DNA of 53,547 nucleotides from Acidobacteriota bacterium. Its GTDB lineage: Bacteria; Acidobacteriota; Vicinamibacteria; Vicinamibacterales; 2-12-FULL-66-21. Each line of letters opens with the position of its first letter. The first letter of the stretch is position 1. Both the position numbers and the translations under genes were made by a program. Below the pieces are notes generated by a model. That model did not search any database, had not been told where the DNA came from, and worked only from the letters and a program-made list of their open reading frames with translations. Shown here in pieces: positions 3,013 through 6,519 of the stretch. The DNA lies in NCBI GenBank assembly GCA_003222675.1, contig QHWT01000044.1, positions 1-53,547 of the forward strand, read 5' to 3'.

Positions 3013-4065
3013 TTAGCCGGAAGTCAGCGCAGGCTTCGAATTGACCAGCGGGATCACCTCGGAGGCGAAGCGCTCCATCTCCTCGTATTGAGGGCTGAAC
3101 TGCAACAGCAGCAGCTCCACGCCTGCACGTTCGAATTCGAGAACGCGTTCGGCCACCTGCTCGGGCATTCCCGTGAGGCCGCTTCGCAGGCCGCGGTTCG
3201 ATACGGAGTAATCCTCGAGGCTGACCCGCTGCTCGAGTTGCGTGTTCGCAATCCACTCCTGATAGTTCGCGTAGCCGCGCCTCGTCTGCTGCACGTCGGT
3301 AATGCGCGCCAGTTCCCGTTTGAGCTCGGAGTCCGTTGACCGCACCACCGCATAGCCGGCGCTGCCGAAGGTCATCGGCGGCAGGCCGTGCGCCTCGCGT
3401 CGCGCACGCATGTCGTCGATCTTCCCGCCGATGATGTCGGGAGGATCGCCGTGCGTCAGCCACGCGTCGCACTTCTTCGAGATCAGCTCCTTCGCGGCCG
3501 GTGACTCGCCGCCCGCATAAATCGTGGGCCGCGGCTTCCGGGCGGGTTTGGGCTCGAGGACCGCGTCCTCGATGTTGTAGTAATGCCCTTTCAGGGAATA
3601 CACCGGATGGCTCCAGAGTCCATCCACCACATCGAGCCACTCGGACGTGCGCGCGTACCGATCGTCGTGCTGATCGAAGGCGACGCCGTACATGCGTGCC
3701 TCAGACGCCCACCACGACGACACCACGTTCAGCGACAAGCGGCCGCCGCTGATCTGATCGATGTTCGCAGCCTGCTTTGCGAGAAGGGCCGGGAGGTGGA
3801 ACGTCGGCCGCACCGCGACCATGATCTCGAGCCGCTCGGTCACGGCCGCGAGCGCCGCCGCCGTGCTCCAGGCATCGAGCGACGGCGCGTCGACGCCTTT
3901 GATGTCGTTCAGATTCAGCTCCGCGACCAGCGTCAGATCGAATCCGATCTCTTCGCTTCGCCGCGCGAGCCGGCTCACGTAAGACCACGTCGGCTCCATC
4001 CCCTCGTCGTCTACGTTCCGGAGCCATCCGCCGAACACCGGAAGCCAGTAACCGAACCGCATCAC
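3013..4065 (-). CDS. LLM-class FMNH2-dependent monooxygenase (SsuD/SfnG-like)
   Basis: This 350-residue protein is a luciferase-like TIM barrel. The N-terminal FGYWLPVFGGWLRNV, the barrel motif LTLVAELNLNDIKG (~44-57), VVSSWWASEARMYGV (~114-128) and TIYAGGESPAAKELI (~185-199) match flavin monooxygenases that cleave C-S bonds of sulfonates or sulfones (alkanesulfonate, dimethylsulfone). Such enzymes take reduced FMN from a partner reductase, and a flavin reductase gene is two genes upstream in the same operon. Its start overlaps the stop of the ATP-grasp gene by 4 bases, so the two are translationally coupled. A cysteine-rich leader peptide in front of the operon supports a role in sulfur supply. 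The exact substrate is unknown, and C-C or C-H oxidation cannot be excluded. Confidence 0.88.
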   Translation of the reverse strand: MMRFGYWLPVFGGWLRNVDDEGMEPTWSYVSRLARRSEEIGFDLTLVAELNLNDIKGVDAPSLDAWSTAAALAAVTERLEIMVAVRPTFHLPALLAKQAANIDQISGGRLSLNVVSSWWASEARMYGVAFDQHDDRYARTSEWLDVVDGLWSHPVYSLKGHYYNIEDAVLEPKPARKPRPTIYAGGESPAAKELISKKCDAWLTHGDPPDIIGGKIDDMRARREAHGLPPMTFGSAGYAVVRSTDSELKRELARITDVQQTRRGYANYQEWIANTQLEQRVSLEDYSVSNRGLRSGLTGMPEQVAERVLEFERAGVELLLLQFSPQYEEMERFASEVIPLVNSKPALTSG

Positions 4066-5054
4066 ACCGCCTCCCCCGCCGGCGTTGCGACCCGCGCGAG
4101 CTCCGCCTCGAGCCAGTCCGCCAGGCGCACGAACGGATCGAAGCCGATGACGCGCGGCGCGTCCGCCACGAAATTCGACAGCGCATTGATATCGTAGAAG
4201 TACGGTCGGCCATCGCGCGGATCGATTATGTACTCGACACCGCCAATCTCGATGCCACCCGCGGCCGTGATGCGCTCGACCGCGTGAACGATTTCATCCG
4301 GCGGTGTGTAGCCTTCCACGCGCAGGTTGTTCTTCGGCGCATCGACAGGACACGCCGGCCGCGCGAGCTCAGCGCCGTCGACTCCCTGACAGACGTCCGC
4401 GGGGCACAGATTGAAACTGTCTCCTGGCGTATAGATGCGAATCGCGTACAGATATTGCCCGTTCAGCACCTCGACGCGGACGATGCGTCCAGCGTCGGCA
4501 GAGACGTATTCCTGTACGAGCGCGGTGCTGTCGATACCAAGCTGCAGCGTGCCTTCACGTGAAGCGCGCGCCAGCGTATCGGGAGAATCGAACCGGACGA
4601 TGCCGGCGCCGCTTCCGCCGATGTTCGGCTTGACCACGACGGGGAACCGCAATCCGTCTGCCGCCTGGCTCGCCTGTGATGGATGGTGAATCACCCGCGC
4701 GCGCGGATACGGAAGGCCGAGCCGCTCGAGCAGCGTGAGCTGGTACGCCTTCGAGATCTCGGTCTTCCACGCCGCATACCCGTTAATCACCCGCACTCCA
4801 AGGCGCTCGAGATGTGCGAGGTACTGCAGCGTATAGAACGTCAGGTGACCACGCCCCCGTGTGTAAGCGGAGGGACTCATGCGGTTGAAGATGACGGCGT
4901 GCGGCGGCTTCCGCTCGCAGGGGTCGTAGGTGTGCTGATCGGCATGCAGCGCATCGTACGGCACGCCGCGACGATCGAGCTCCTGAAACAGCGGCCGATA
5001 CCAGTCGGGATGTTCGTAGTAGATGCCGAGCGGCTTGCCGGTGACATGAGACAT
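4062..5054 (-). CDS. ATP-grasp ligase, RimK/glutathione-synthetase-like
   Basis: This 330-residue protein carries the ATP-grasp core. VVVKPNIGGSGAGIV (~139-153) has the nucleotide-binding Lys142 and Gly-rich loop, VQEYVSADAG (~180-189) is the adenine/hinge segment, and YFYDINALSNFV (~285-296) has the Mg-binding Asp/Asn residues. Family members form amide or peptide bonds from a carboxylate, ATP and an amine through an acyl-phosphate. The N-terminal ~100 residues (pre-ATP-grasp domain) are not recognised. It lies 6 bases downstream of the flavin reductase and overlaps the LLM monooxygenase by 4 bases. An amide-forming enzyme between a flavin reductase and a monooxygenase is not part of the textbook sulfonate pathway. 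It may make or activate the sulfur-containing substrate (inference). Confidence 0.85.
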   Translation of the reverse strand: MSHVTGKPLGIYYEHPDWYRPLFQELDRRGVPYDALHADQHTYDPCERKPPHAVIFNRMSPSAYTRGRGHLTFYTLQYLAHLERLGVRVINGYAAWKTEISKAYQLTLLERLGLPYPRARVIHHPSQASQAADGLRFPVVVKPNIGGSGAGIVRFDSPDTLARASREGTLQLGIDSTALVQEYVSADAGRIVRVEVLNGQYLYAIRIYTPGDSFNLCPADVCQGVDGAELARPACPVDAPKNNLRVEGYTPPDEIVHAVERITAAGGIEIGGVEYIIDPRDGRPYFYDINALSNFVADAPRVIGFDPFVRLADWLEAELARVATPAGEAV

Positions 5055-5060
5055 GTTCGA

Positions 5061-5615
5061 TTACCCCTTCGATGCAGCCCTGAACGGCTGCGCTGCGACT
5101 GCGGCCACATCGGCAATCCCAAGCGCTTCGGCGACCGCGCGGTCGATGCGCTGAGTAACCACGTCCTGTGGACCGTCCGCGCCGAATTGCGCGTCGGTGG
5201 CGTAGATGCCGGTCGCGACGACCTGCGCACCCACGCTCGCGAGCAACGGCCGGAGCGCGTGATCGATCACGAGCTGATGTGCGGATCCGCCGCCCGTGGC
5301 AATCGGGATCGCGACCTTCCCGTCGAGCGCATCCATCGTGAACAGATCGAAGAACACCTTCAGCATTCCGCTGTAGGACGCGCGGTAAACAGGTGTGCCG
5401 ACGATGACGATGCGCGCGGCGGACACGGCTGCCAGCGCATCCGCGATCGCCGCAGACTTCGTGCGGCCGAGCAGATCATCCGCCGGCAGATCACAAAGGT
5501 CGATCAGCCGCGTGTCCAGTCCCGCGCCCGCGCACCGCGCCAGGGCGTGCGCGAGCAGCCGCCGCGACCTCGATTCACGCGACGGACTCCCCGAGATGGC
5601 AACCGCTGACGTCAT
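5061..5615 (-). CDS. NADPH-dependent FMN reductase (SsuE-like flavodoxin fold)
   Basis: This 184-residue protein has the flavodoxin-like fold of the SsuE/MsuE family. GSPSRESRS (~9-17) is the phosphate-binding loop for FMN, TPVYRASYSGMLKVFFDL (~78-95) is the isoalloxazine contact segment, and TGGGSAHQL lies at ~110-118. Family members reduce FMN with NAD(P)H and pass FMNH2 to a two-component monooxygenase, here most likely the LLM protein two genes downstream. The ATG at 5615 follows a purine-poor spacer, and the terminator at 5630-5664 ends only about 20 bases upstream. Expression should therefore depend on read-through of that terminator. Confidence 0.9.
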   Translation of the reverse strand: MTSAVAISGSPSRESRSRRLLAHALARCAGAGLDTRLIDLCDLPADDLLGRTKSAAIADALAAVSAARIVIVGTPVYRASYSGMLKVFFDLFTMDALDGKVAIPIATGGGSAHQLVIDHALRPLLASVGAQVVATGIYATDAQFGADGPQDVVTQRIDRAVAEALGIADVAAVAAQPFRAASKG

Positions 5616-5629
5616 GTAACGGTCCCGGA

Positions 5630-5664
5630 AATGAGAAAGGCCCCGTCTCGCGTGAGAGGGGCCT
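5630..5664 (-). terminator. Rho-independent terminator in the leader of the flavin-reductase operon
   Basis: On the minus strand, GGCCCCTCTC - ACGC - GAGACGGGGCC forms a 10-pair stem with one bulged C and a 4-base loop, followed by TTTCTCATTT. It lies between a cysteine-rich leader ORF and the first structural gene, which is where an attenuator is expected rather than an end-of-operon terminator. Its 5' arm (5654-5660) is complementary over 7 bases to a leader segment at 5728-5734, a possible anti-terminator pairing. Confidence 0.8.
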
Positions 5665-5792
5665 CGAGAAACGTCGCGCTCGGCTGCTGTCGCCTTATTT
5701 GATTCGCCTGCGTGCGAGCACGCTCGTCCCTCTCTCCCTCACGGGAGTGCTACAGATGCACCAGGGACAGCAGCAGCGGAAGGGCATGCGCT
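5639..5792 (-). promoter_or_regulatory. Candidate cysteine-responsive transcription attenuator
   Basis: In transcript order it contains a leader ORF (5787-5695) with five Cys codons among its first 12. The segment GCTGCTGTC (5774-5766), over the consecutive Cys codons, is perfectly complementary to GACAGCAGC (5691-5683) just after the leader stop. The terminator (5664-5630) follows. A ribosome stalled at Cys codons would mask the first arm and leave 5728-5734 free to pair with the 5' arm of the terminator. This layout is that of amino-acid attenuators. The pairing scheme is my inference and has not been folded computationally. Confidence 0.72.
5695..5787 (-). CDS. Cysteine-rich leader peptide (30 aa)
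   Basis: A short ORF starts ATG at 5787 and ends TAA at 5695. It encodes MPFRCCCPWCIC followed by 18 mostly polar residues. Cys occupies positions 5, 6, 7, 10 and 12. The -10 hexamer lies at 5804-5799, so the transcript should begin near 5792, leaving about 5 bases before the ATG. The message is almost leaderless and has no Shine-Dalgarno sequence. Polycysteine leaderless leaders that act as cysteine attenuators are known from mycobacteria. This one is followed by complementary arms and an intrinsic terminator, and then by a sulfur-type operon. It is probably regulatory only, and the peptide itself need have no function. Confidence 0.75.
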   Translation of the reverse strand: MPFRCCCPWCICSTPVRERGTSVLARRRIK

Positions 5793-5798
5793 GACGGG

Positions 5799-5828
5799 AT
5801 CGTACCGTTCGCGCTTCGCACGTGTCAA
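5799..5828 (-). promoter_or_regulatory. Strong sigma70-type promoter of the flavin-reductase operon
   Basis: On the minus strand, a perfect -35 TTGACA (5828-5823) and a -10 TACGAT (5804-5799) are separated by 18 bases. The expected transcription start is near 5792, directly ahead of the leader ORF ATG at 5787. Confidence 0.75.
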
Positions 5829-6100
5829 ATCGGAGGACGCAGGACGGTTGTCGGAGGTCGGTTGGCTGAGGTCGGTCGGCAGAGGTCGATTGGTGGAGGT
5901 CGGTCGGCGGAGTTGTCGAAGAGGACGGCTGTGGGAGTTCGGCGGCGCCGACGGAAAACGGTTCAGGTCTTGCTTCGCGGTCCTGGCGTAGCGCGCAATC
6001 GCGTGATTCGCCGACGGCTCGGGCTACCAGTCGCAGGCACTTCGATTCTGGTTGTACTCGCCGTGCGGCTGATCTCGTAACAACCGTCAACCGGCCACCG
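5829..6100. repeat. Intergenic stretch with aggtcggt word repeats
   Basis: Between 5848 and 5915 the word (g)aggtcgg(t) recurs about seven times with different spacers. The rest, to the end of the winged-helix gene, contains no gene, promoter or RNA that I can support. A long minus-strand frame crosses it and merges with the Cys leader frame, but it has no protein-like features. Confidence 0.5.
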
Positions 6101-6107
6101 GCAACCG

Positions 6108-6419
6108 TCAAAGGATCCGCTCGCGCCTCACATATAGATGACGCGAGTCCCGGCGAATCTGTCCAGTCCTGGCCAGCGCATCGAGGATCCGCAAACAGGC
6201 CCCTTCGTCGACACCAAGCAACCGCATCGTCTGCCGTAGCGATAAGGTGAGTCCCGGCATGTCATCGAATTCAGCGACGATCCGTTGGACGAGTGCGTCG
6301 CGGCGCAGCACGTTGCGCCGTTCCGTCAAGCCCGATGGAGGCAGATGCATGCTGATTGGACGCCCTTTGACATCACCGAGTGAAACCACCGCCGATGCGG
6401 GATGCTTCGCGAGGGACAT
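6108..6419 (-). CDS. Small winged-helix-like protein (103 aa)
   Basis: Start ATG at 6419 is preceded by GGGAG six bases upstream. The C-terminal half (TLSLRQTMRLLGVDEGACLRILDAL and onward) reads as a winged helix-turn-helix, with a recognition-helix pattern around residues 60-85 and a wing ending in HLYVRRE. The N-terminal part (VVSLGDVKGRPISMHLPP) is predicted beta. It may be a regulator, but no ligand or DNA target can be named. Possible -10 TATTAT at 6467-6462 would give a ~36-base leader. It lies between the Cys-regulated operon and the YeeE/rhodanese pair, so a role in sulfur regulation is possible but unproven. Upstream codons in the same frame lack coding character. Confidence 0.6.
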   Translation of the reverse strand: MSLAKHPASAVVSLGDVKGRPISMHLPPSGLTERRNVLRRDALVQRIVAEFDDMPGLTLSLRQTMRLLGVDEGACLRILDALARTGQIRRDSRHLYVRRERIL

Positions 6420-6519
6420 GTGACACTCCCGTGTGGACGCGGTTGACGCCCGAGGGCCGCCATAATACTCCAATTCGCCGACTTTTGATCCCTCGTACGC
6501 CGTGATGCGTTTCGGTCCA

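Follow-up and report, generated by a model that had tools for sequence, protein, structure and literature searches.

How might a soil bacterium decide when to scavenge sulfur? The question is raised by a three-gene operon in a 53,547-nucleotide contig of an Acidobacteriota bacterium, the whole stretch of DNA analysed here and called the window below. The sequence-only reading had proposed that a near-leaderless, Cys-rich leader peptide and a terminator form a cysteine attenuator in front of this operon. Using profile searches, related loci with shuffled controls and RNA folding, we find that the feature is genuine and that reading right in the main: as judged from sequence, the locus belongs to a recurrent family of probable leaderless Cys attenuators in front of sulfur genes. 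The switch would probably let the bacterium turn on its sulfur-scavenging genes only on cysteine shortage, and candidate switches of this type precede sulfur genes in several relatives as well as in another phylum.

The operon and its leader region

All features of the window locus lie on the minus strand. The operon encodes an SsuE-like NADPH-dependent FMN reductase (5061–5615; SsuE/FMN_red profile), a RimK-like ATP-grasp enzyme (4062–5054; profile match) and a luciferase-like monooxygenase nearest to the sulfone and alkanesulfonate enzymes SfnG and SsuD (3013–4065; Bac_luciferase profile). All three families named from the translations were thus recovered by profile, and the NCBIfam SsuE and SfnG matches of the window genes fall below the curated cut-offs. 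From these enzyme families we infer that the operon scavenges sulfur. As a marker in relatives, SsuE matched 11 of 60 genomes, strongly in the window's own genome only. In several phyla the ATP-grasp enzyme and an SfnG/SsuD-like monooxygenase are closely linked (window 4062–5054, L019–L097), and in Deinococcus deserti (L017) a related monooxygenase adjoins an annotated D-cysteine desulfhydrase and an amino acid racemase.

Upstream of the operon, a sigma70-like promoter is predicted at 5799–5828, with TTGACA (5828–5823), an 18-nt spacer and TACGAT (5804–5799). The −35 element is perfect (6/6) and the −10 element matches at 4/6 positions, 10/12 in all, so that the description of both elements as perfect was overstated; because one promoter of such quality was found against 0.3 expected in 2 kb, it is by itself weak evidence. 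Transcription is predicted to start at ~5792 (the −10 end plus 7), ~5 nt upstream of the ATG at 5787, in agreement with the distance first proposed. The leader ORF (5695–5787) encodes MPFRCCCPWCICSTPVRERGTSVLARRRIK in 30 codons before its stop codon, and the putative regulatory Cys codons, all five within the first 12 as originally read, are codons 5, 6, 7, 10 and 12 (5752–5775). The exact leader matched two of 396 genomes in a sample of the phylum, the window itself and one out-of-frame match; the latter lies inside a long ORF, cobD-like by reading, and was rejected as evidence of conservation. An Rfam search of the window returned no match.

Between the leader ORF and the first gene (5615) lies a predicted intrinsic terminator (5629–5665), a GC-rich hairpin with one bulge (5665–5637; −20.6 kcal/mol) followed by an interrupted U-rich tail (5636–5629). 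The hairpin of the "strong intrinsic terminator" first placed at 5664–5630 therefore stands, but the tail is interrupted and a strict terminator scan of 4500–6500 found none. The second half of the leader holds a candidate antiterminator strand (5728–5743), parts of which are paired to the 5′ arm and the loop of the terminator when truncated transcripts with a stalled ribosome are folded; the pairing of the 5′ arm with 5734–5728 noticed at the outset is possible (GAGAGGG:CCCTCTC), and pairing of the whole strand with the terminator is no better than in shuffles at this locus. A further pairing had been seen between the Cys codons (5774–5766) and a stretch just past the leader stop (5691–5683). 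The perfect 9-bp complement is present, a length reached by 0.2% of 2000 mononucleotide shuffles, but it is absent from the minimum-free-energy fold, and as a family feature we rejected it: 4 of 62 leaders score at or below 0.05, about as expected by chance.

Recurrence of Cys leaders before sulfur genes

Is this arrangement a peculiarity of one contig? In a scan of species genomes, relatives of the ATP-grasp enzyme turned up at 79 loci. Most belong to records labelled Gemmatimonadetes or Acidobacteria, and the rest include some Bacteroidetes. With L016 from a plasmid search and the window itself, they make up a set of 81 upstream regions, from which L017 and L018 had been excluded beforehand as they lack an ATP-grasp match. 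In most related loci a monooxygenase gene lies 3′ of the ATP-grasp gene, and in 12 an SsuE gene also stands in front. We call a leader strict if its ORF spans 7–60 codons, has 4 or more Cys within 9 codons and lies no more than 300 nt upstream of the first operon gene. Of the 81 regions, 23 have such a leader, the window included, whereas 100 dinucleotide-shuffled sets average 0.3 (maximum 4) and the reverse strands give 2. The other 58 regions have no strict leader. They include 9 of the 12 related loci in which the three genes come in the window's order; one of these 9, L025, has a weaker leader. Apart from Cys the leader peptides diverge among loci, and the Cys spacing is not conserved either. 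Weaker leaders (2–3 Cys) with terminators occur at L025, L041, L053, L058 and L068, and at L028 a leader lies ~730 nt upstream.

Behind the stop codon, 21 of the 23 strict leaders have a terminator, which bears out at family level the claim that a terminator follows the leader; none was detected behind those of L022 and L050. When 1.91 Mb, counting both strands, was scanned for leader plus terminator, 21 separate sites lay before an ATP-grasp operon and 6 elsewhere. An Rfam search of 11 related loci gave one match, a SAM riboswitch upstream of the ATP-grasp/monooxygenase operon of L066 (5479–5577; Salinimicrobium), a locus without a strict leader; it represents another sulfur-related sensor ahead of the same operon type.

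The position of the start codon also recurs. We took the best sigma70-like promoter at most 85 nt before the first Cys codon, using approximate sigma70 weights, in 53 of 54 hand-picked leaders (L057 was missed, and L033, a near copy of L031, was not included). In 43 of the 53, a start codon in frame falls between −3 and +7 nt relative to the predicted transcription start, and the other two frames give 2 and 0, a count somewhat favoured because the leaders were picked from scans requiring an in-frame start. In L038, L047 and L092 the distance is 14–22 nt instead. Near-leaderless initiation is thus supported by predicted geometry across the leader family, and with it the near-leaderless start proposed for the window leader. 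The Cys codons themselves are biased: TGT:TGC is 81:44 in leaders of ATP-grasp operons versus 24:121 in the operon genes of leader-bearing loci (Fisher p = 2e-16). Slower decoding of TGT is a possible reason for this bias, and pairing constraints could contribute.

The window's own genome (G000) carries three further leaders. On contig C60 (L100, 15187, minus strand), VIVKALRAACCRPGHMCLRACAILATSMIS and a terminator precede a TonB-type receptor, downstream of which lie TauE/SafE, cysD and cysH (PAPS-reductase-family) and cysN genes; the receptor may import a sulfur compound. At 11483 of L100 (minus strand), MCCSGMASTRCRCVCRLPATRV precedes TauE/SafE-cysD-cysN-cysH, with no terminator by the test applied. 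The TauE/SafE, cysD, cysH and cysN genes of this genome, and cysG below, were identified by Pfam. The third, MGCCSCTATKTSMRNRTMRIRVSGGVCVYAP (G000:C152; L255, reverse complement, ~464–614), mixes Cys, Thr and Met codons, with TTGACG-17-TATACT just ahead of its ATG and a strong terminator behind; it is perhaps a multi-amino-acid attenuator. By reading of translations, the genes that follow it encode aspartokinase, homoserine dehydrogenase, threonine synthase and siroheme synthase. In 100 genomes searched for peptides similar to the second own leader, nothing but the leader itself stood out.

In other genomes, we examined cysD upstream stretches from the best 20 of 45 matching genomes (100 searched), to which G000 was added. 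A leader (4 Cys in 9 codons) with a terminator lies within 2 kb of the cysD end in 10 of these 21 stretches, and in 13 when 3 Cys suffice. The reverse strands, intended as a control, gave 4 matches, which stand before cysG-like (3) and TauE/SafE-like (1) genes; the siroheme synthase identity at L188 is backed by the profile match at L235, and the other reverse-strand genes were called by reading. A siroheme synthase profile yielded 30 loci counted as cysG (L249 weak among them), of which 10 carry a 4-Cys leader with terminator on one or both strands, versus 0 of 35 other loci in the same scan, 5 of these being cysD stretches. The leader stands before cysG itself in 8 of the 10. At L194, which shares its genome with L020 (a Gemmatimonadetes record), it precedes a cysteine-synthase-like gene; L235 has an additional leader before a cysK-like gene, and at L232 leader and terminator precede a gene not assigned to cysG. 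Used as a marker in 19 leader-bearing genomes, cysD was discarded: it matched two (L253, L254), neither with leader and terminator. A lack of Cys codons upstream of orthologues would have spoken against the proposal; they are found there in 23 of 81 regions, and before cysD, cysG, TauE/SafE and cysK-like genes as well.

Leaders at L170 and L171 have no detected terminator. The two share a C-terminal motif, CRC(V/I)C..PAT, with L177 and with the leader at 11483 of L100 in G000; three of the four lack a terminator and that of L177 is weak, so another mode of control is possible in this subset. By reading, Cys leaders with terminators also stand before a porin-like gene (L181; ..GAGCCCCCRG..) and a gene with a thioredoxin-like stretch (L186; MGRRSAATCACCPGFC..), which are candidate further members. 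Together, Cys leaders and terminators form a candidate regulon of sulfur genes in the relatives.

Proposed stall-dependent antitermination and its alternatives

How could such a leader control transcription? We propose transcription attenuation mediated by the ribosome, with charged tRNA-Cys as the signal. The transcript would begin ~5 nt upstream of the leader ATG, and a ribosome would load at its 5′ end without a Shine-Dalgarno site. When cysteine is ample, the ribosome would move past the Cys codons and, in the second half of the ORF, cover the antiterminator strand, so that hairpin 5665–5637 forms and transcription ends ~20 nt short of the FMN reductase gene. Under a shortage of Cys-tRNA, the ribosome would stall at the Cys codons, and the strand behind them would capture the hairpin 5′ arm before the 3′ arm is made; the polymerase would then read into the operon of FMN reductase, ATP-grasp enzyme and monooxygenase, the last presumably of sulfonate or sulfone type. 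The same design may serve other sulfur genes in relatives.

At equilibrium, the window terminator forms in all ribosome states (0.94–0.98). Among 27 leaders, comprising 21 of the 23 strict ones (without L022 and L050) and the six weaker L025, L041, L053, L057, L058 and L068, terminator probability is lower by more than 0.1 with the ribosome at the Cys codons than at the stop codon in 11, and the window is not one of them. A duplex between the second half of the leader and the terminator arm was tried as a test and set aside (12/27 at p < 0.05; window p = 0.40). As an antiterminator can work only until the 3′ arm has been made, transcripts were folded when cut before that arm, and capture of the 5′ arm with the ribosome at the Cys codons minus capture at the stop was taken as a proxy for switching. 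In these cut folds, mean upstream capture of the 5′ arm is 0.70 at the Cys codons versus 0.27 at the stop, and the difference exceeds 0.2 in 23 of the 27. The proxy is 0.42 versus 0.19 ± 0.04 in shuffles (maximum 0.28 in 40 sets); as the shuffled controls show (0.19), the longer free stretch yields part of the difference by itself. For a second set, 34 sulfur-gene leaders were taken, and the 31 that have a terminator by a tail rule laxer than that of the 21/23 count (those of L177 and L182 are weak) give 0.50 versus 0.21 ± 0.035 (maximum 0.26).

For the window leader the proxy is −0.05 (0.32 at the Cys codons, 0.37 at the stop), a value reached by 72% of its shuffles; the proxy likewise fails for L020 and L188, and the genome's own TonB-receptor leader does no better than shuffles. 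By ribosome position, capture of the window 5′ arm is 0.56 at Cys12, 0.72 at codon 13 and 0.01 at codon 14. Against shuffles, the proxy stands out in both leader sets and does not do so in the window leader. Stall-dependent antitermination across the leader family appears well supported by these predicted folds, and it joins the recurrence of leaders, their position before sulfur genes, the near-leaderless geometry, the terminators and the TGT bias of the Cys codons in favour of the cysteine-attenuator reading. We regard it as probable, on this comparative evidence, that the window locus is controlled by Cys-responsive transcription termination.

Could the leaders act in another way? A leaderless poly-Cys ORF might act mainly on translation of the next gene, as in mycobacteria, with leader occupancy altering access to the FMN reductase start and the hairpin incidental. 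The leaderless Cys-rich ORF does resemble mycobacterial ones, some family leaders lack a detected terminator and the window antiterminator is weak; however, the terminators behind 21 of the 23 strict leaders and a proxy above shuffles in two leader sets make this mode improbable. The high Cys density might instead reflect a functional peptide, for example a metal-binding or arrest peptide, with regulation following its ligand and not cysteine. Such a precedent exists in the copper-responsive upstream ORF system of Bordetella, but neither the peptide sequence beyond Cys nor the Cys spacing is conserved, the leaders precede sulfur-assimilation genes and their Cys codons are TGT-biased, and we consider this explanation very improbable.

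Least credible, and hardly to be entertained, is a chance ORF over a GC-rich leader followed by the ordinary terminator of an upstream unit. The exact leader is not conserved, and the window U-tract and antiterminator are weak, as this explanation would have it, but chance accounts neither for strict leaders in 23 of 81 regions, versus 0.3 in shuffles, nor for the start-to-promoter geometry. With cysteine attenuation as the preferred reading, a wider picture may be drawn: the window lineage of Acidobacteria and the Gemmatimonadetes may hold a broad cysteine regulon governed by numerous leaderless poly-Cys transcription attenuators that evolved separately. In these, 70S ribosomes would initiate at the bare 5′ end, which would stand in for the Shine-Dalgarno site and the pause hairpin found in classical systems, and some leaders would carry Thr and Met codons besides Cys. 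We hold this picture tentatively, at a little under an even chance.

For abundant soil bacteria, the proposed switch names the amino acid that is sensed, the genes concerned and a mechanism open to testing, and it would tie leaderless translation to transcription attenuation at the scale of a regulon. Its signature, a promoter, a start codon at the transcription start, dense Cys codons and a terminator, could be used to find sulfur genes such as that of the window ATP-grasp enzyme.

Relation to known attenuators

The classical transcription attenuators with amino-acid leader peptides are those of the trp, his, thr and ilv type. The window system resembles them in its short ORF rich in codons for the regulated amino acid, its candidate overlapping alternative pairings and its predicted terminator before the first gene; of the features of the ribosome-mediated class, it has a Cys ORF predicted to be translated, a hairpin with a U-rich tail and putative sulfur-pathway genes. 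Unlike the classical systems, it involves cysteine, a near-leaderless start, and Acidobacteria and Gemmatimonadetes.

Cys-rich leaders occur in Mycobacterium and others (PMC1262725). The leaderless polycysteine attenuators of mycobacteria, rightly named at the outset as known, are described in papers citing Canestrari 2020 as cysteine-responsive and acting on translation. Both groups have Cys-rich leaderless upstream ORFs before cysteine or sulfur operons; in those accounts, however, the mycobacterial leaders have no conserved terminator hairpin and are called translational, whereas here predicted intrinsic terminators with candidate alternative pairings are found. Because of these terminators, we do not assign the leader family to the mycobacterial attenuators.

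The expectation that no terminator-based case had been described in Acidobacteria agrees with the open-licence literature, where we found none; a predicted terminator-type Cys attenuator, the uORFC-8-2 motif, is placed upstream of cysS in Rhodobacterales (PMC8632094). Cys codons in an upstream ORF, an intrinsic terminator and predicted attenuation are common to both. The uORFC-8-2 motif usually has tandem Cys at codons 14–15 and stands before cysS only, within a single bacterial order, whereas dense Cys codons precede several sulfur genes here; with another gene and other Cys positions, the window leader is not uORFC-8-2. No description of leaderless start, Cys codons and terminator together was found in the open-licence literature, nor any Cys leader in Acidobacteria or Gemmatimonadetes, phyla that few of the searches named.

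Leaderless leader peptides with terminator-type attenuation are reported for leuL2, trpL1 and ilvL of Streptomyces lividans (PMC8079986) and trpL of Sinorhizobium meliloti (PMC7298713). These share with the window system a leader ORF at the transcript 5′ end and a terminator, and differ from it in amino acid and phylum. Each pair among leaderless start, Cys codons and terminator thus has a precedent.
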